Assembly (NCBI GenBank): GCA_023807065.1
Contig: JAJJLU010000477.1
Span: forward strand, 1-38,360
Length of the DNA stretch: 38,360 bases
From: Isotricha intestinalis
Taxonomy: Eukaryota; Ciliophora; Litostomatea; Vestibuliferida; Isotrichidae
Reading direction: 5' to 3'
The notes under the pieces: generated by a model
The model's database searches: none
The model's input: the letters and a program-made list of their open reading frames with translations, nothing else
What the model was told of the DNA's origin: nothing
Shown: positions 518 through 36,060 of the stretch, in pieces
Layout of the letters: each line of letters begins with the position of its first letter
Position numbering within the stretch: the stretch's first letter is position 1
Position numbers and translations under genes: made by a program

Positions 518-3500
518 ATGTTAGGTGATTCATCATTTGAAAAGAGTCAAAAGAATAATAAAGATTTAATTCAAACAAGTGATGAAATGAATGGTAAAGA
601 AAAGACTTTTAATTATTTTTATAATGTATTAAAAAAGAAAAATTTAAATGTTTTCATTATATGTTTATTAATAATAACAGAAACAATACAATTAATATCA
701 TATGGATTTAGTGATCCACATAAAAAATTTTGGAAAATAAAAGACAGTAGAATAAATAATATAAATTCTTTAGTAGGAGCATTAAGAGTAACACAAATAT
801 TAAAATATATTAAATTTAATATTTATCTAATTATTTGGGCAATATTTCTAGTAGTAATTTTCATAACAATATTATTAATATCAATGGCAATTAAATTTAA
901 TAAACCAAATTCTTCCTTTTATAAAATTGTAGTTACTTATGGAAAATATATTTCTGCTTTGATGACTTCTTTTGGTTTAATTCCTTGTACAGAAATGTTA
1001 TTATTAATGTTTAAATGTGAAGATAAAAAAATTGACATTGTTAAAGAACCAATCAAATGTTATAAAGGAGTTCATTTTTTATATGCTGGATTATCTATAA
1101 TATTTTTAATTGGACAATTTACATTAAATTTATTATTTGGAATTTTTTGTTTTGATCCTTTTAATAATAAAAATTCTACTACTAAAGTTGATACAAGTGC
1201 TGATTTATTTTATTATATATTAATTTTAATAAATTGTTTAAGATATATATTTATTAAAAATGAATGGATTAGTATTGCTATTTTATTAGTTGGTTCTTTA
1301 TTTAATTTAAAAAAAGGTTTTGATGAACCTTTATATAATAATTTTATTATTCAATGTTTTATAATTATTAGAAATAGTTTATTTTTATGGACTTCTTTTA
1401 TGATTATGATATGTAAATTAACTTATGATTCTAAATTTGATGGTAACATATATTTATTTTTATTTGGAATGCCTTTAATTATTATTACTTGTGCTATTTG
1501 TTATAAAAAAGAAAGTGAAAATTTAATTATTACCAATGTTAATTCTGGAAGTGCAAATGACTTTATAAATAGAACCAAAAGTGTTATTGTTTTAATAGGG
1601 AAATTTATTGATAAATATAAATCTGTTGAAAATGCTAAAAAAGGATATGATAAAAATGATATTTTTTTGAAAGGTTTAGTTTCAAGACATTTAGAAACTT
1701 GTATTGATGAAGAATGTCCTTTAACTAAATATATGGAAAATCAAGGTAATTATCAAATTCAAAAAGCTTGTTTATTACATTATATTAATACTTTATTAAT
1801 TGATGGTATTAAAAAATTTCCAAATAATAAAACAATTGTAATGACATTTATTCAATTTAATTATTCAAATAAATTTAATTTAAATGCTGCTAAAAGTTAT
1901 TTATCAAAATTAGAGAAAGAAAATAATACAATAACAGAAGATTATATATTATTTTGTATTAAACAAAGTGTAAATTCATTAAGTAATAATAAAATTAATT
2001 CAGGTTTTAATGGAGAAAATGAAGAAATGGAAAAAATGGAAGAAATGACAGAACATAAATTTAGAAAATTAAAATATTTAATAGAATCAACAACAAAATT
2101 ATATGGTGAATTTTGGGGAGTTTTATCAACTAATTTAACAAATAATTTAAATTTAGAGAAGTTATATTTCTTAGGAAATAAATTAAATATTTTATTAGAT
2201 GAAATAAATCAATTATGGGAGAAAGATTTAAAATCGAAAAAAATAGATTTAGAGAATCAATCAATAGTTCAATTATATGCATATTTTGTTAGAGAAATAT
2301 TAAGAAATAAAACAAAAGCAGATGAAATAACAAAGAAATTAAATGAAGAACAACATTTTGAGTCAAAAAAAAATGATTCAGATAAATTTGACCCTGATAA
2401 TTTAGATATTATATTAGAAGATCAAGATTGTGTAATATACAGTAGAACAAATGAAAAAGGAGATTGTTCAATATTACAATGTTCAAATAGTATAGTTAAT
2501 TTATTAGGATTTACAAAACAAAATTTAATAGGAAAAAAAATAGAAACTTTAATGCCAAGTATCTTTGTTAATGGACATTCAAAGGTAATTTCAAATAAAT
2601 TAAAAATTTTAAGAAAAACAAATCCAGGAATGAATAAAGCAAGTGATAAAAAACAAATATTTATTTTACCTAGAACAAAAGTTGGATATTTATTACCAAC
2701 TTTAAGTAAATTTACTGTTTATAATGATGATGATTTTTCAAATACTTTTATTATAAAAGCAAAATTAGAAAATAAAGATCCAAAATCAGTTTATGCTTTT
2801 TATATATTAGCAAAAGATGATTTTACAATTGATTCTTTTTCTTCTTCAGCTTTAACAATGGGATTAACAATGGATTTATTGAAGAAATATGTAGTAAATT
2901 TAAATATATTAATTAGATCTTCTGAAAATACAGAAGCTATCAATTTATTAGAAAGATTTAATGAATTTGAAGATGAACCAAAAAGAATAACTTGGGTTTT
3001 TCCTGATATTATTTATCCTAAAAATGATTCTATTAGAAAAAATGAAGAAAATGTTGAAGAATTAATTAAACAATCTGAAAAAAAAGATTATAATTTATTA
3101 ATTACTAAAATGAAATTAGGTGATGAAGAAATTGGTTTTTGTTTAAGATTCACTGCTCCTGAAAGTAAAAGAAATAATACTGATTTAAGTGATTTTAAAC
3201 AATCAAATTCTAAGTTGATTATGTATGATATCTTAAAATTAAATTTTGTAAGAACTCATTTAGTTTCTCAGAAAAAAAATCCTAATGAAGAATATTTTTC
3301 TCATCCTAAAAGTGAAAGTCCAGTTATTAATATTAATGAAAATAATGAAAGTATTGGGAAAAAAAGTAAAAAAAGTAAGAAAAATAAAGGAAATCATAAT
3401 AATAATAATAGTGAAGAAGAAGATGAAGAAGAGAAAAATTCAGGAGATGAAAATAAAAATATTTTAACAAAAGAGAAAATATTAGAATTTCAAAGTAGAA

Positions 3501-5638
3501 GTTCTCAAGAAATAAATAATTTTATAAATTCATTAAAATATTATGGAGCAGATATAAATTTAGAAAAACATAGACCAAATAAAGAATTATATCCAGCTGG
3601 AAAAATATCAGAACCAAATATAAAAATATCAATTAGTTCTTTTGTTAAGAGAATAGAAGAAAAATTAAAATCACATCCTGAATATAAGAATATTAAACAT
3701 AATAGAGAAATAGCAAATAATAGTGCTAATAGCAATTTAACTCCTGAAAGTCATGAAAATAATAATAATATTAATAATAATTTTGAACAAAATCAAAATG
3801 ATAATAATAATCAAGGAAATTCAAATGAAGTTAATGCAGATATATCTTTTTCTTTAAATCATATATTTAATGAAAAAAGTGTTACTTATATAAAAATTTC
3901 AGCAGTGATAATTTTTATAATTGTATTATCAATAATAAGTATTGAATTTGCTTTATCATTAATAAAAACAAATCAATGTTCAGAATATATCAAATATTTA
4001 GATGATTCATATATATTATTAAATTCTTTTTTATATACAAAATATTTTATAACAGAAGTGATTTTATCTCAAGATCAAAATTATACTAAAGTATTAGAAG
4101 TAGATCAAAAAGAATATATATTAAATGCAAAAAATGAAATGGCAAATTATAGACAAATAATAAATGATTATATATCATTTTTTTCTAATGCAACAGTAGG
4201 ATTTAATAAAGAATATAATAATTATGTAGACAATGTTCAAATATGTGTAAGAACTTTAAGTAATTTAATTCCAGCAACAGAAATTATTTCTTATTCAACT
4301 GCTTTAAATAGAATTAAAACTTCAATCTTTTTTGTTAGTACAATAACAGATAATTATCAAAGTATAAATATGGAAAATAGAAATGCTTATGAATTAATGA
4401 TGAATTTATTAAATGATTATTTATTAATGATGAGAAATGTTACTTTTATTTTAGCTAAAAATACTATTGATGAAGCTAAATCACCTTCTATTTTATTATT
4501 TATTTTTGTTTTAAGTTTTGTTGTTGTTTTTATTGAATTATTCATTATTTGGAAATTAATTAGTAGATTTATTGATGATAGAGAAAAACCTGTTGATTTA
4601 TTTTTAACTATTAAAAAAAAGAAATTCGAAGAATTAAAATCAACAAGTGAAACGTTTTTAAATAAATTATTAAATAAATTTTTTGGAAATGAAGAAACTG
4701 AAGAAGAATCAAAAATAGAATATACATCAACATCAAAAAATGAAGATATAATAATGATAACAAAATTTAAACAGAAAAATGATTATAAACAATCAATAAG
4801 AAATTCATCAGAATATTTATTTTCTTTTATATATATAACATTATTTTTAACATGTATAGAAGGATATATGACATTTAAATTTTTTTACGTAAGAAACATA
4901 ATGTCAAACATAAAAAATTTTGATGATGTATTTAACATAACACATTATAGTGAAAGTGACTTAATAATAACAACAAATATTTATAAGAGTTATTATTACA
5001 ATTCTTCAATTCCAATATTAAATTCAACAGATACATTAAATTTATTTTATTTAAATACATTAGGAATATCAGATGTAATAGAACAATTATATACAAAAAC
5101 TTATGAAACTTCTTCATTTTTAAAAGGAAAATATTTAGATGAATTTTCTAATAGAATGGCAGGTGATATTTCTGATATTTTAACTAATATTTCTTCAGAT
5201 GATCCTGATTATAGAGGAACTATACAAAATGGTTTTTCTTGTGTTTCAACTAGATTTTTTGAAATGAATAAATTTTTAGCTGTTTTATATATTAAACAAA
5301 AAGATAGTTTAGATACAGTGAATTTCTGTTATAAACCTAAATTTCTTGAAATTAATAAAGTCCAAATTAATGTTATTAGACCTTGGTATAATTATATGAT
5401 TCAACAATTAAAAAAAACTTTTGATGATTATAAAGATAATACTATTCTTATTTTAGATAGTACTTATATTGTTTTATTAGTTGTTGTTATTGTTATGTAT
5501 TTTCTTGTTTGGAAAGGTTATGAAGATAAATTAAAAACTTTACTTAAAACTAGTGTTGATTTAATTAAATTAATTCCTGATGAAATTAAAAGGGAAATTG
5601 TTAAAAAATTAAATGAAGAAGAAGAAAAGAATGAATAA
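518..5638 (+). CDS. TmcB-like (tiny macrocysts) PAS-domain multi-pass membrane protein
   Basis: A 1706-residue membrane protein. About eight hydrophobic segments fill residues 43-335 (first about 43-66). A soluble stretch with short helices follows, then a PAS-like domain near residues 627-690 (LDIILEDQDCVIYSR, then GFTKQNLIGK and NGHSKVI). A charged low-complexity linker spans about 935-1110. Four more transmembrane segments lie near 1126-1152, 1324-1350, 1430-1456 and 1643-1668. This order (N-terminal multi-pass block, central PAS, C-terminal widely spaced segments) is that of the TmcB/TmcC family, which is greatly expanded in ciliates and some other protists. The family is presumed to sense signals at a membrane, but its biochemical role is not established. 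The start is the first ATG of the open frame, after an A-rich leader. The two C-terminal loops between membrane segments could be extracytoplasmic sensor regions (inference). Confidence 0.85.
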   Translation: MLGDSSFEKSQKNNKDLIQTSDEMNGKEKTFNYFYNVLKKKNLNVFIICLLIITETIQLISYGFSDPHKKFWKIKDSRINNINSLVGALRVTQILKYIKFNIYLIIWAIFLVVIFITILLISMAIKFNKPNSSFYKIVVTYGKYISALMTSFGLIPCTEMLLLMFKCEDKKIDIVKEPIKCYKGVHFLYAGLSIIFLIGQFTLNLLFGIFCFDPFNNKNSTTKVDTSADLFYYILILINCLRYIFIKNEWISIAILLVGSLFNLKKGFDEPLYNNFIIQCFIIIRNSLFLWTSFMIMICKLTYDSKFDGNIYLFLFGMPLIIITCAICYKKESENLIITNVNSGSANDFINRTKSVIVLIGKFIDKYKSVENAKKGYDKNDIFLKGLVSRHLETCIDEECPLTKYMENQGNYQIQKACLLHYINTLLIDGIKKFPNNKTIVMTFIQFNYSNKFNLNAAKSYLSKLEKENNTITEDYILFCIKQSVNSLSNNKINSGFNGENEEMEKMEEMTEHKFRKLKYLIESTTKLYGEFWGVLSTNLTNNLNLEKLYFLGNKLNILLDEINQLWEKDLKSKKIDLENQSIVQLYAYFVREILRNKTKADEITKKLNEEQHFESKKNDSDKFDPDNLDIILEDQDCVIYSRTNEKGDCSILQCSNSIVNLLGFTKQNLIGKKIETLMPSIFVNGHSKVISNKLKILRKTNPGMNKASDKKQIFILPRTKVGYLLPTLSKFTVYNDDDFSNTFIIKAKLENKDPKSVYAFYILAKDDFTIDSFSSSALTMGLTMDLLKKYVVNLNILIRSSENTEAINLLERFNEFEDEPKRITWVFPDIIYPKNDSIRKNEENVEELIKQSEKKDYNLLITKMKLGDEEIGFCLRFTAPESKRNNTDLSDFKQSNSKLIMYDILKLNFVRTHLVSQKKNPNEEYFSHPKSESPVININENNESIGKKSKKSKKNKGNHNNNNSEEEDEEEKNSGDENKNILTKEKILEFQSRSSQEINNFINSLKYYGADINLEKHRPNKELYPAGKISEPNIKISISSFVKRIEEKLKSHPEYKNIKHNREIANNSANSNLTPESHENNNNINNNFEQNQNDNNNQGNSNEVNADISFSLNHIFNEKSVTYIKISAVIIFIIVLSIISIEFALSLIKTNQCSEYIKYLDDSYILLNSFLYTKYFITEVILSQDQNYTKVLEVDQKEYILNAKNEMANYRQIINDYISFFSNATVGFNKEYNNYVDNVQICVRTLSNLIPATEIISYSTALNRIKTSIFFVSTITDNYQSINMENRNAYELMMNLLNDYLLMMRNVTFILAKNTIDEAKSPSILLFIFVLSFVVVFIELFIIWKLISRFIDDREKPVDLFLTIKKKKFEELKSTSETFLNKLLNKFFGNEETEEESKIEYTSTSKNEDIIMITKFKQKNDYKQSIRNSSEYLFSFIYITLFLTCIEGYMTFKFFYVRNIMSNIKNFDDVFNITHYSESDLIITTNIYKSYYYNSSIPILNSTDTLNLFYLNTLGISDVIEQLYTKTYETSSFLKGKYLDEFSNRMAGDISDILTNISSDDPDYRGTIQNGFSCVSTRFFEMNKFLAVLYIKQKDSLDTVNFCYKPKFLEINKVQINVIRPWYNYMIQQLKKTFDDYKDNTILILDSTYIVLLVVVIVMYFLVWKGYEDKLKTLLKTSVDLIKLIPDEIKREIVKKLNEEEEKNE

Positions 5639-18403: not shown

Positions 18404-18515
18404 ATAGTTTTTTTCTTTTTGAATGTTAATTTTTAAAAATTATGGTTTTTTTTAAAGAAATTAAAAAACGTTTTTTTAATTATTTTGTTCAAAAAATCAA
18501 AAAAAAAAAATAAAT

Positions 18516-19179
18516 ATGAATAAAAAAATTAAGAATTTATCTTTTTTATCAATTAAAAAAAAAACTATATCTGAAATAAACAATATAAAAAACGTTGAAA
18601 AAAATATTTTAATAAAAGCTAAAAAAGCAAAAGAAGAAAAAAAGATAAATGAGTGCCTTTGAAATTGATATGTCAAATAAATCAGAATATAATCTTTCCT
18701 TTCTTGTAGATGTCGGAAAAACAAATTGGTTTCAAAATGGTGAAAAACAAGGAAAAGATTTTATAAATGAATCATTAAAAGAAAAGCTTCCAAAAAATAC
18801 ATTATTCAATATCAATTCTTTAATTTTTAATATAGAATCTCATCAAGAAGAAATATTAAGTAAATATGATTGTTATTATAATTCAAATAATAATTCTCTT
18901 TATATTATAATAGGAGACATCGCAAAGTATGCTGATTTTTCAAAAGAAATTATGATGAATTTAATGGAATTTTCTCAAAAACTTTCTATATCTTCTATTT
19001 TCTTACTTATTTGCAGAAAAAATAAAGATTATGTTAAATTACTTCAAGGAATGTTAACTGTTGGTTTTACTAATGAAGAAACTACTAAAACTACTACTAT
19101 TGATGGAAAAATGTATAAAATTTTAAAAATGAATTTAAGCAAAGCTCAAGCTGAAATTGAAGAAGTTGATTTTATGTAA
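18516..19179 (+). CDS. OAZ: Ornithine decarboxylase antizyme, expressed by +1 programmed frameshift
   Basis: Frame 0 starts at ATG 18516 and runs 48 codons to TGC CTT TGA (TGA at 18660-18662). The +1 frame continues from GAA at 18661 to TAA at 19177-19179. Skipping the T of TGA gives 48 + 172 = 220 residues, the normal antizyme length. The +1 frame has the antizyme core: SLYIIIG, then MNLMEFSQKL, SSIFLLICRKN, DYVKLLQGMLTVGF, aligning in order with the mammalian SLYIEIPG, LLEFAEEQL, HVFICFHKN, DRAALLRTFSFLGFE. Antizyme binds ornithine decarboxylase, blocks it and directs it to the proteasome; the shift is raised by polyamines (family knowledge). The +1 frame is closed just upstream by TAA at 18646-18648, and an in-frame ATG at 18649 could alternatively start a 176-residue protein with the first frame as an upstream ORF. 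The 5' frame is Lys-rich. The C-terminus ends AEIEEVDFM. Confidence 0.82.
18654..18663 (+). promoter_or_regulatory. Predicted +1 recoding site of the antizyme (CTT TGA A)
   Basis: Zero-frame codons TGC CTT are followed by TGA; reading GAA after skipping the T joins the two antizyme frames. Antizyme recoding classically occurs at a sense codon followed by UGA (for example UCC UGA in animals), so codon type and direction agree. The shift can only occur between the +1-frame stop TAA at 18646 and this TGA, a 14-base overlap that includes the classical position. I could not assess a downstream pseudoknot. Confidence 0.75.
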
Positions 19180-19616
19180 ATCAATTAAATAGTTTAAAAT
19201 AAATTTTTGGAAAGAGATTGTAAAAATAGAACTTAAAACATGATACAACATGATGACGGTTTGAATGAGATATGTTAATTAATGTAAATAGATTTTTTAT
19301 CTTTTATGTTAGTTAATATATTTAAGTTTTTTTTTCTCCTTTTTATAAGGGAAATTAAAATGTCATTTAAAGACCTGATTTTAATAGAATGTTGTACTGT
19401 TGGTTGTTTTATTTTTGTAATCTCTGTACCTCTATATAATGAATTATTGTTTATATATTTTTATTTTTTAAGATATTTTATTTATTGTTTTTATTTCTTA
19501 TTTGACAATTTGAATAAAAATTATAAATTTATATTTAATTTACTGTTAGAAAAGAAAGCAATAAAATATTATATATTGATAAAATTTAAAAATTTATCAT
19601 CTGAAAAAGAAAAAAA
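19180..19616. other. 437-bp spacer holding a hydrophobic open frame of doubtful status
   Basis: An open frame from ATG 19306 to 19647 (113 codons) overlaps the start of the WD40 gene by 31 bases. It encodes a very hydrophobic, Phe/Tyr-rich peptide (LIECCTVGCFIFVISVPLYN) with perhaps two membrane segments. Its codons (CTC, CTT, CTG, AGG, GAC) differ from the TTA/AGA-dominated neighbours, and it overlaps a well-supported gene, so it may be a relic or chance. The first 120 bp of the spacer are less AT-rich than most spacers here but show no recognised RNA gene. Confidence 0.35.
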
Positions 19617-20858
19617 ATGGAAAAAAACAATAATTCCGATAATTTAAATAATCAAGAATCAGAAAATAATTTAGAGAATGAGAATTTAAATAATGAAAAT
19701 GACTATATGGAAAATGAGCAAATAAATGAAGATGAAATAATAGAATATGAAGAAATAGATAAAAATAAAGAAATGGATTTAGAAGATGAAAATATAGAAA
19801 ATGTAAATGAAGAAGAAGAAGAAAATTATGAAAAAGAATATCCTGATTTTAAATCAGAAGGAGAAATTTATAGTATTGGATTATATAATTCAACTTTAAT
19901 AATTGGTGATGGAGAAGATAAAACAACATTTTATGATTTAGATAAAAAGCAAATAATAAAAAGTGAAAAATATAATAAAGATAGTGTAAATTTTATAAAA
20001 ATATCAAATGATAAAAAATATATGATAACAGGATCGGTGGATGGAACAATAAATATATTTGATACAAATACTTTTAATTTATTAAATACAATAAATGATC
20101 AAGATTCAGAAATTAATTGGATTGAATGGCATCCTAAAGGAAATGCTTTTTGTTTTGGAACTTCAGAAGGATCAATTTGGGTTTATTTAGCTAATAATAT
20201 TAACAATAATTTTAATTTTTTTTCTCATACTGATTCTTGTACTTGTGGTTCTTTCTGTAATTTAGGTAAAAATATTATTAGTGGTAGTGAAGATTTATCT
20301 GTTAAAATTTATGATTTAAAAAATAGAAAAGTTAATTTTACTATTAAAGGAAAAAAATTCATGCAAAATCCAATTACTTGTTTAAATGTTTGTGAAAAAA
20401 AACCAATTTGTGCAGTTGCTTCAATTGGAAATGAAATTGCAATAATAAATTTTGATAATGCAAATATCTTATATTATTTTATGTTTCCAGAAAAAGAAAA
20501 TTCTATTGAAACTATTCAATGGTGTAATGATGATAATTATATTATGTTTTCTGATAGTAAAAGTTTAGTTCATATTTTTGATAATAATACTTTACAAATT
20601 AGAAGTAGTATTAAATTAGATAATGAAAATATTACTAAAATGATTAAAAGTAATTTTAAGAGTTATCAAATTTTTGCAAGTGGTTCTAATGGAAATTTTT
20701 ATATTTTTGATTGTAGAGGAAATGGCTCTATTATACAAAAAGAAAAAGTTCATAAAGATGTTATTATGGATTTTATTGTCACTGAAAAAGAAAATTTTAT
20801 TATCACTTCTTCAATTGATAAAACTATTAATTTAGTTAAGATCGTTAATATAAATTAA
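19617..20858 (+). CDS. WD40-repeat protein, AAMP/Sqt1 family
   Basis: A 413-residue protein. Residues 1-75 are highly acidic and Asn-rich. WD40 repeats fill the rest, about seven blades, for example KYMITGSVDGTINIFDT, NIISGSEDLSVKIYDLKNRK and FIITSSIDKTINLVK. The element INWIEWHPKGNAF followed by FGTSEGSIWVY matches the family-specific LEWMEWHP...GTADGNTWMW of AAMP. In yeast the orthologue Sqt1 is a dedicated chaperone of ribosomal protein uL16 (Rpl10) during 60S assembly, and the acidic N-terminus suits binding a basic ribosomal protein (family knowledge). Start choice: this ATG gives an acidic N-terminus of the expected kind; no in-frame ATG lies upstream before a stop. The C-terminal blades are divergent. 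Confidence 0.85.
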   Translation: MEKNNNSDNLNNQESENNLENENLNNENDYMENEQINEDEIIEYEEIDKNKEMDLEDENIENVNEEEEENYEKEYPDFKSEGEIYSIGLYNSTLIIGDGEDKTTFYDLDKKQIIKSEKYNKDSVNFIKISNDKKYMITGSVDGTINIFDTNTFNLLNTINDQDSEINWIEWHPKGNAFCFGTSEGSIWVYLANNINNNFNFFSHTDSCTCGSFCNLGKNIISGSEDLSVKIYDLKNRKVNFTIKGKKFMQNPITCLNVCEKKPICAVASIGNEIAIINFDNANILYYFMFPEKENSIETIQWCNDDNYIMFSDSKSLVHIFDNNTLQIRSSIKLDNENITKMIKSNFKSYQIFASGSNGNFYIFDCRGNGSIIQKEKVHKDVIMDFIVTEKENFIITSSIDKTINLVKIVNIN

Positions 20859-33816: not shown

Positions 33817-36060
33817 TTAATTATTATTTTTTTTTCCATTAAAATATTCACCTTCAAATATTAATTCACCATTATAATTATATTCTTTTGCTTTTCCATT
33901 CCATTTTTTTCCATTTAAAAATTCACCTTCAAATTCTAAATTACCATTATCATAATTATAATATTTTCCTTTTCCATTTCTTTTTCCATTAATATATTCA
34001 CCTTCAAATTTTAATTTACCATAAAAATATTCTTTTACTTTTCCGTTTTTTTGTCCATTCTTTAATTCACCTTCAAATTCTAATTTATCAAAAGAATTAT
34101 ATTCTATTAATTTTCCATTCCATTTTCGTCCATTTAAATATTCTCCTTCAAATATTAATTTACTATTATAATTATATTCTTTTCCATTAAATCTTTCTCC
34201 ATTTAAATATTCTCCTTCAAATCTTAATATACCACTATAATCATATTCTTTTACTTTTCCATTTCCATTTTTTATTTCAATTATTTCCCCATTATAATCA
34301 TATATTTTTCCATTCCATTTTTTTTTATTTAAATATCCTCCTTCAAATTGTATTTTACCATTATAATCATATTCTTTTCCATTAAATCTTTCTCCATTTA
34401 AATATTCACCTTCAAATTGTATTTTACCATTATACTCATTATATTCTTTTACTTTTCTATTTTTTTCTCCATTTAAATATTCTCCTTCTAATTCTAATTT
34501 ATCTTTGTAATTATATTTTTGTACTTTTCCTTTCCATTTTACTCCATTTAAATATTCTCCTTCAAATTCTACATATTTACCATTATAATTATATTCTTTT
34601 CCATTAAATTTTTTTCCATTTAAATATTCACCTTCAAATCTTAATTTACCAAAAATATATTCTTTTCCTTTTCCATTTCTTTCACCATTTAAATATTCTC
34701 CTTCAAATTCTAATTTACCATTATAATATTCTTTTACTTTTCCATTTTTTTCACCATTTAAATATTCTCCTTCAAATTCTAATTTACCATCATAATCATA
34801 TTCTTTTACTTTTCCATTACCATTTTTTATTTCAATTATTCCCCCATTTTTATCGTATATTTTTCCATTCAATATTTTTCCCATTGAATATTCACCTTCA
34901 AATCTTAATTCACCATTAGAATAATATTTTTTTATTTTTCCATCTAATTTACCCTCTTTAAAATTATAATCTCCTATCTTTCCAGTCCATCTTTTCCCAT
35001 TTAAATATTCTCCTTCAAATTGTAATTCACCTTTATAATATTCTTTTCCTTTCCCATTTCTTTCTCCATTTAAATATTCACCTTCAAAGCTTAATTTACC
35101 ATGATAATCATATTCTTTTCCTTTCCCATTTCTTTTATTATTTTCATAATTTCCATCAAATATCAAACGACTAACCCAACGTTTATCATCATAACCATAT
35201 TCCTCTCTTGTAACTTCATATTCTTTTCCTTTTCCATTTCTTTCTCCATTTAAATAATAGCCTTCAAATTCTATTTCATTATCAGTTTTATATTCTATTG
35301 AATATCCATTTCTTTCTCCGTCTAAATAATAACTTTTAAAATTTACATCACCATCTTTTTCATAATTTATTAATTGTCCATTTATTTTTCCATTTAAATA
35401 ATTTCCTTCAGACTCTAATTCACCACTTAGATAATAATGTCTAAATTTTCCATTTCTTTCTCCGTTTATATATTCACCTTCAAATTTTAAATCTCCATTA
35501 TAATTATATTCTTTTCCTTTTCCATTTTTTTCACCATTTATATATTCTCCTTCAAAACATAATTGATTAAAGACATCATATTCATTTATTTTTCCATTTC
35601 CATTTTTTAATTCACATTCTAATTTACTTTTATTATCATATATTTTTCCATTCCATTTTTTTCCATTTAAATATTCACCTTCAAATTTTAAAATTCCATC
35701 ATGATAATATTCTTTTCCTTTTCCATTTCTTTTTCCATTTAAATATTCTCCTTCATATTTTATTAACCAATTATCATTATATTCTTTTCCTTTTCCATTT
35801 CTTTTTCCATTTAAATATTCTCCTTCAAATATTAATCTATTATTTTTTATTAAATATTCTTTTCCTTTTCCATTTATTCCATCTACTTTATATTTTTGGC
35901 TTATATTTTTAAAATTTTCTAAATCTATTTCTAGTATGTTTTGATAATATTTACTATATTTTATTATTTCTAATTTTTTCTTTTCTTCTAAAAATAATAA
36001 TGTATTTTGAATATTATATATTGATTTAATATTTCTTAATTTAATTACAGTGTCTTTCAT
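33817..36060 (-). CDS. MORN-variant repeat protein with 29 tandem units
   Basis: A 747-residue repeat protein. The first about 55 residues (MKDTVIKLRNIKSIYNIQNT, then FLEEKKKLEIIKYSKYYQNI) form a helical head resembling an F-box-like start I associate with ciliate repeat proteins. From about residue 60 to the end I count 29 units of about 18-35 residues with the consensus FEGEYLNGERNGKGKEYNYNG-KL, the MORN-variant (MORN_2) pattern built on a YxGEY..G..NGKG core. Such arrays form extended beta-hairpin solenoids that bind lipids or scaffold proteins (family knowledge). Units 3-4, 14-15 and 22-23 share a short variant, (W/L)NGKIYD..., followed by a shortened unit ending NGNGKVKEYDY, giving a higher-order pattern. 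No membrane or signal sequence. It is divergent from the next + gene, 248 bp away. Confidence 0.85.
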   Translation of the reverse strand: MKDTVIKLRNIKSIYNIQNTLLFLEEKKKLEIIKYSKYYQNILEIDLENFKNISQKYKVDGINGKGKEYLIKNNRLIFEGEYLNGKRNGKGKEYNDNWLIKYEGEYLNGKRNGKGKEYYHDGILKFEGEYLNGKKWNGKIYDNKSKLECELKNGNGKINEYDVFNQLCFEGEYINGEKNGKGKEYNYNGDLKFEGEYINGERNGKFRHYYLSGELESEGNYLNGKINGQLINYEKDGDVNFKSYYLDGERNGYSIEYKTDNEIEFEGYYLNGERNGKGKEYEVTREEYGYDDKRWVSRLIFDGNYENNKRNGKGKEYDYHGKLSFEGEYLNGERNGKGKEYYKGELQFEGEYLNGKRWTGKIGDYNFKEGKLDGKIKKYYSNGELRFEGEYSMGKILNGKIYDKNGGIIEIKNGNGKVKEYDYDGKLEFEGEYLNGEKNGKVKEYYNGKLEFEGEYLNGERNGKGKEYIFGKLRFEGEYLNGKKFNGKEYNYNGKYVEFEGEYLNGVKWKGKVQKYNYKDKLELEGEYLNGEKNRKVKEYNEYNGKIQFEGEYLNGERFNGKEYDYNGKIQFEGGYLNKKKWNGKIYDYNGEIIEIKNGNGKVKEYDYSGILRFEGEYLNGERFNGKEYNYNSKLIFEGEYLNGRKWNGKLIEYNSFDKLEFEGELKNGQKNGKVKEYFYGKLKFEGEYINGKRNGKGKYYNYDNGNLEFEGEFLNGKKWNGKAKEYNYNGELIFEGEYFNGKKNNN
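33840..35890 (-). repeat. Tandem 60-75 bp coding repeat array (MORN units)
   Basis: On the + strand the array is visible as recurring CCATTTAAATATTC blocks followed by ACCTTCAAAT or TCCTTCAAAT, spaced roughly every 60 to 75 bases through the whole gene. Neighbouring units are near-identical at places (for example around 34680-34790), which suggests fairly recent unit duplication or conversion. Confidence 0.85.

Follow-up and report, generated by a model that had tools for sequence, protein, structure and literature searches.

Organization of the antizyme-like locus

The stretch considered here (the window) is the whole 38.4-kb contig JAJJLU010000477.1 of the ciliate Isotricha intestinalis, 38,360 nucleotides long. 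Between positions 18516 and 19179 it carries two overlapping open reading frames (ORFs), the second of which resembles ornithine decarboxylase (ODC) antizyme, a polyamine-controlling protein family known for +1 programmed frameshifting. The features of the locus, all on the forward strand, are as follows:

18516..18662 (+), upstream ORF (ORF0): ATG 18516-18518, 48 sense codons, the last being CTT 18657-18659, and stop TGA 18660-18662
18649..19179 (+), antizyme-like ORF: ATG 18649, 176 codons, stop TAA 19177-19179
18649..18662 (+), two-frame overlap: AAT GAG TGC CTT TGA over ATG AGT GCC TTT GAA
18657..18662 (+), candidate site of a +1 shift, CUU UGA followed by A, as read in the sequence
18649..18651 (+), rival start codon, the in-frame AUG opening the 176-codon frame, starting 11 bases before TGA 18660
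18880..19089 (+), stretch matching PF02100, residues 78-147 of the 176-residue frame
18404..18515 (+), interval between ORF0 and the ubiquitin-conjugating-like gene upstream, for which leader composition was computed

The coordinates of ORF0, the +1 phase of the second frame and its upstream closure by TAA 18646-18648 had been proposed in a first-pass annotation and were confirmed by direct reading; ATG 18649 directly follows this TAA. The four peptides quoted there were all found in the +1 frame, and a shift at CTT TGA does yield the claimed 220-residue product (48 + 172 residues). The layout is therefore real; what that annotation underplayed is ATG 18649, which is in frame and coincides with the position at which many relatives begin.

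Two other explanations of the layout were considered and rejected. No in-frame, stop-free GT..AG pair that would splice ORF0 to the core was found with donors at 18519-18664, acceptors up to 18759 and introns of at least 16 bases. Reassignment of UGA does not agree with the six long ORFs, out of 89, that stop at TGA, nor with the further TGA and the TAA that frame 0 encounters over the next six codons. The remaining stops of the long ORFs are TAA (79) and TAG (4), and the genetic code is taken to be standard and the chromosomes to be large.

Antizyme identity of the downstream frame

The assignment of the downstream frame to antizyme, made in the first-pass annotation, is supported, with a weak sequence match: the core scored 20.9 bits against PF02100, below the curated cut-off of 24.2. 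Among 31 aligned family proteins the domain was detected at E <= 0.01 in 19 (best 2e-6) and 12 had no match; the cut-off was passed by P0019 and P0020. The fold of the protein was found to be that of an antizyme. ODC-contacting residues described for human AZ1 include K153, E165, K178 and R188, among others (PMC4595762). In a low-confidence alignment with AZ1, K153 falls on K99, K178 on R123 and R188 on Q133, E165 lies at a gap and the GF pair is kept.

The 176-residue ORF might instead encode a GNAT-like protein that merely resembles antizyme and has another role. In the Foldseek ranking antizyme came 35th, below spermidine acetyltransferases and further proteins of the GNAT type, and in sequence searches of the PDB no antizyme was matched at E <= 1 by the window protein or by the family profile. 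The comparison with human AZ1 by hhalign gave a probability of 8.6% (E 0.0039), and the sub-threshold PF02100 score and the 12 unmatched family members point in the same direction. We regard this explanation as very improbable.

ORF0 as a candidate coding sequence

In Markov simulations of the leader, an ATG-initiated ORF with 48 codons or more in exactly the right phase arose with a probability of 0.0012, 0.0019 or 0.0029, and the stop-free share of mononucleotide shuffles of 18516-18648 was 0.27%. None of 78 other gene starts had at least 44 open codons in the phase of ORF0 (longest 42); in the other phase there was one such start, at 19617, where the open stretch is probably a neighbouring gene. 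UGA makes up 17% of intergenic stop triplets, and CTT stands directly before an intergenic TGA in 27 of 1344 cases. That the two-frame layout arose by chance is unlikely.

Over 47 codons, ORF0 has a codon score of 5.25 bits, within the 5-95% range of gene N-termini (0.4 to 28.9); stop-free intergenic windows have a median of -11.9 and a 75th percentile of -2.6. The phase-0 coding-versus-leader score of +5.8 bits was attained by none of 67 leaders, largely since leaders contain stops. ORF0 thus ranks low among coding sequences by its codon and leader scores. When the genome was searched for another copy of ORF0, only marginal matches appeared (best E 0.14).

The sequence upstream of the two ATGs also differs. 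The 60 bases before ATG 18649 are atypical of a leader, with 11.7% G (as high in 2/78 gene leaders) and an A-skew shared by 2/78, whereas those before ATG 18516 form an ordinary leader (5% G, as high in 25/78; A-skew, 32/78). The same contrast was seen with 30-base leaders; with 100-base leaders the contrast in G fades (8 and 13 of 78).

Initiation at AUG 18649 and the protein relatives

The chief rival explanation is that the protein is made solely from AUG 18649 as 176 residues, with no frameshift, ORF0 being either an overlapping upstream ORF (uORF) that damps translation or a stretch outside the transcript. We hold this tentatively to be a serious possibility, falling short of even odds, and most of the observations gathered in this section weigh against frameshifting.

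Relatives were compared as proteins, and no DNA of relatives was found in one scan each of viral and genome contig collections. Of 120 core homologues listed, 95 could be anchored on the motif LSFLVD, and 76 of these begin with Met 16 residues before it; none of the 95 starts more than 18 residues upstream of it. The second residue in the 76 is T (39), S (19), P (9), K (8) or M (1); in 89 genes of the sampled genome, S, T, A, P or G make up 37% at position 2 versus 18% overall. P0001 and P0002 begin 15 residues before the motif, like the window protein, the Met of the 76 lying one residue further out. Pointing as it does to ordinary initiation, this shared Met is the strongest evidence for it. 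The other anchored proteins begin at 14, 17 or 18 residues (5/95) or at eight residues or nearer (12/95), and the latter, together with the 25 of 120 that were not anchorable, tell against exclusive use of AUG 18649. The unanchored group includes P0003-P0013 and P0015, twelve near-identical 138-residue proteins that are 87-90% identical to the window protein and are without its first 38 residues, and also a group with five proteins beginning with Leu or Val. Such odd starts, in unanchored and near-anchor homologues alike, may result from introns, gene calling or contig ends.

A start context (-12 to +9) as good as that of ATG 18649 is found in 1% of 78 gene starts and, at two decimals, in no intergenic ATG, and one as good as that of ATG 18516 in 40% and 3%, respectively; on the 12 upstream bases alone, 17% of genes attain the value of ATG 18649 and 27% that of ATG 18516. 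Measured over 130 bases, the G contrast of the leaders is reversed (as high in 2/78 leaders for ATG 18516 and 21/78 for ATG 18649). ORF0 is also less exceptional by other measures. There are 13 ATG ORFs of at least 48 codons on both strands of 46 kb of intergenic sequence, so that such ORFs are not rare. The best stop-free intergenic windows outscore it (95th percentile 19.6 bits), as do, per codon, five of 32 intergenic ATG ORFs of at least 35 codons; only 5.6% of gene N-termini have a lower phase-0 coding-versus-leader score. Its GC by codon position is 0.19/0.15/0.15, compared with 0.29/0.22/0.07 in genes, and the periodicity of the latter is absent.

Two frame-0 codons of the overlap are rare (GAG, 5.0% of Glu codons; TGC, 7.3% of Cys), which translation of the +1-frame MSAF would explain. 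In favour of a shift, the +1 frame has in turn the rare GCC (2.4% of Ala codons), whose third base makes CTT. Wherever a third base in the overlap is unusual, it serves the other frame at codon position one or two. Near the start of genes, over the first 30 codons, the three codons occur slightly more often (GCC 3/38, GAG 18/265, TGC 4/37), and the core ORF has itself a high GC at third positions (12.5%). The three rare codons, a small number, hint that both frames are read.

Searching with the frame-0 peptide gave three near-identical proteins only, P0121 (48 residues, 100% identity), P0122 (48 residues, 85%) and P0123 (35 residues), and none from the core's 47-66% identical relatives. Loss of ORF0 in relatives had been named in the first-pass annotation as an argument against the shift, and here the outcome is divided. 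ORF0 is kept in P0121 and P0122, the 5' part of the latter looking, from the protein alone, like several small frame-restoring indels. In P0123 it is cut to 35 codons, with the first 29 residues identical, which resembles one unrestored indel. We count the evidence of P0122 and P0123, taken from the protein level, as cancelling out. No fused ORF0-core protein was among the three proteins found with an 82-residue composite.

The genome contains four divergent antizyme-like paralogues, 34-41% identical:

L002:1462-1878, paralogue
L003:1405-1821, paralogue
L004:1468-1875, paralogue
L005:1510-1926, paralogue

All four appear to begin at their own ATG, and no long ATG ORF overlapping the start was seen by eye in 240 upstream bases in three frames. 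PF02100 left a trace in L005 only (E 0.015). Antizyme of another ciliate, Tetrahymena, is reported to be decoded without frameshifting (PMC5009743). Finally, the search for a downstream RNA stimulator, suggested in the first-pass annotation, showed none: in pseudoknot-free folding no structure beyond that of shuffles was seen at 18600-18740 (z +0.94) or 18663-18762 (z +1.44).

Against all this, decoding from AUG 18649 alone needs ORF0 to be open by chance (about 0.2%) or to be an unrelated regulatory uORF, and it leaves 60 bases that are atypical for a leader upstream of the start codon.

As a separate observation on the paralogues, the word TGAATAAGC is common to the leaders of L002, L004 and L005, where it begins 28-31 bases before the ATG. 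It has one further occurrence in the 256 kb sampled, in L013, and its 13-base form with up to three mismatches is common genome-wide. Convincing homology between the window leader and the paralogue leaders was not found.

Polyamine enzymes in the assembly

No ODC was found in the 57-Mb assembly, where the sole match to PF02784/PF00278 is a LysA diaminopimelate decarboxylase:

L006:1153-2325 (-), LysA, TIGR01048 at 406.9 bits, best PDB matches diaminopimelate decarboxylases

No OKR-type decarboxylase (PF01276) was found in the assembly either. The absence of ODC is provisional, since sequence may be missing from the assembly and introns break up matches. Feedback control acting on ODC is unsupported because no ODC was found; the same result would suit a GNAT-like protein. 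The spermidine synthase domain gave three partial matches of 31-44 bits (cut-off 22.9) in long ORFs, two of which were rescanned, and a spermidine synthase-like enzyme may be present. The assembly does contain deoxyhypusine synthase (E 1.3e-123), an enzyme for which spermidine is a substrate. These findings would fit a cell that takes in putrescine or spermidine and whose antizyme would act on this uptake. An antizyme without functional ODC is reported for a filarial worm (PMC5009743).

Proposed decoding

We consider that +1 shifting is used in making the antizyme with a probability of about one half. Chance explains ORF0 poorly, and a shift fits the phase, the stop and the slippery codon; initiation at AUG 18649 fits the protein family. 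Of the first-pass proposal of a shift at CUU UGA, the layout stands and is unlikely to be due to chance, while production of the protein by the shift is rivalled by the in-frame ATG 18649.

Ribosomes would initiate at AUG 18516 and translate ORF0 as far as UGA 18660, where they would pause. Some of them would slip +1 at CUU-U, where the P-site leucine tRNA may re-pair from CUU to UUU. The slipped ribosomes would read GAA next and complete the 220-residue antizyme, and the remainder would terminate. Polyamines would raise the slipping fraction, as in other antizymes. AUG 18649 may provide a second, basal form of 176 residues; such a dual mode fits both ORF0 and the family start. Given that no ODC was found, polyamine uptake, and not ODC, may be what the product restricts. 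The reading frames, the similarity to antizyme, the improbability of ORF0 in its phase and the failure to detect an ODC are results of the analysis; that the transcript starts before 18516, that ORF0 is translated, that ribosomes slip, that polyamines affect the slip and what the product targets are inferred.

A more specific version would have an ODC-less ciliate with a dual-entry antizyme, made by a +1 slip at CUU-UGA and from an ungated AUG 18649, which senses imported polyamines and controls uptake alone. We think this version unlikely; the spermidine synthase matches above the family cut-off count against it.

Genomic context and neighboring genes

The genome is AT-rich, as stated in the first-pass annotation, with 18% GC in 256 kb sampled, and the search for tRNA genes gave 62 matches. 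As the contig ends (38340-38360) in GGGGATTGGGGA, a CCCCAAT-type telomere, the window is likely to extend to the end of a macronuclear chromosome. Of the contig-start loci L015-L026, 8/12 begin with at least two CCCCAAT repeats. The repeat has been reported for Balantidium and Muniziella and also occurs in the Entodinium caudatum genome announcement.

Downstream of the antizyme-like ORF, a 113-residue hydrophobic ORF (19306-19647), whose end overlaps the start of a WD40 gene (19617) in another frame, is probably a separate small gene. At 518-5638 lies a gene for a 1706-residue protein that matches TmcB TPR weakly (E 2.5e-5, under the cut-off) and shows traces of PAS. A 747-residue protein encoded at 33817-36060 (-) is built from FEGEYLNGERNGKGKEY-like repeats that by eye resemble MORN units.

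Comparison with known frameshift systems

The locus shares with the antizyme (OAZ) genes of animals and fungi two overlapping ORFs, the +1 phase, the UGA junction, a short first ORF and an antizyme-like second one. In contrast to these genes, the codon before the stop is CUU, an in-frame AUG lies just ahead of the junction, at the point where relatives begin, no ODC was detected, no RNA stimulator was seen and the domain score is under the Pfam cut-off; a 3' RNA stimulator is a feature of some antizymes only. The Tetrahymena gene is likewise a ciliate antizyme, and its single-frame decoding is the very rival considered above. Compared with it, as far as a review describes it, the window has in addition an overlapping upstream ORF ending in CUU UGA. 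Bacterial prfB encodes a protein unrelated to antizyme, and its signal is a bacterial one with a Shine-Dalgarno-like stimulator. The CUU UGA site at which E. coli RF2 (prfB) shifts +1 is identical to that of the window (PMC4759687), and Ty1 shifts at CUU AGG C (PMC5009743). In Euplotes, also a ciliate with +1 shifts at stops, stop-codon frameshifting is abundant across genes and is described as not regulatory (PMC4759687, PMC10235951). By comparison, one gene was examined here and the sampled genes of the host end in ordinary stops.

Polyamine-dependent +1 frameshifting of antizyme has been called nearly universal (PMC10235951). Among the papers listed by searches of open-licence literature for ciliate, rumen and protist antizymes, no title or abstract opening described the gene in gut ciliates. 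A two-frame layout with an in-frame AUG at the family start in a standard-code ciliate would show the gain or loss of frameshift control, or a dual mode, and if antizyme has been retained where ODC is not detectable, the role of the protein in polyamine uptake would be set apart from its role on ODC.
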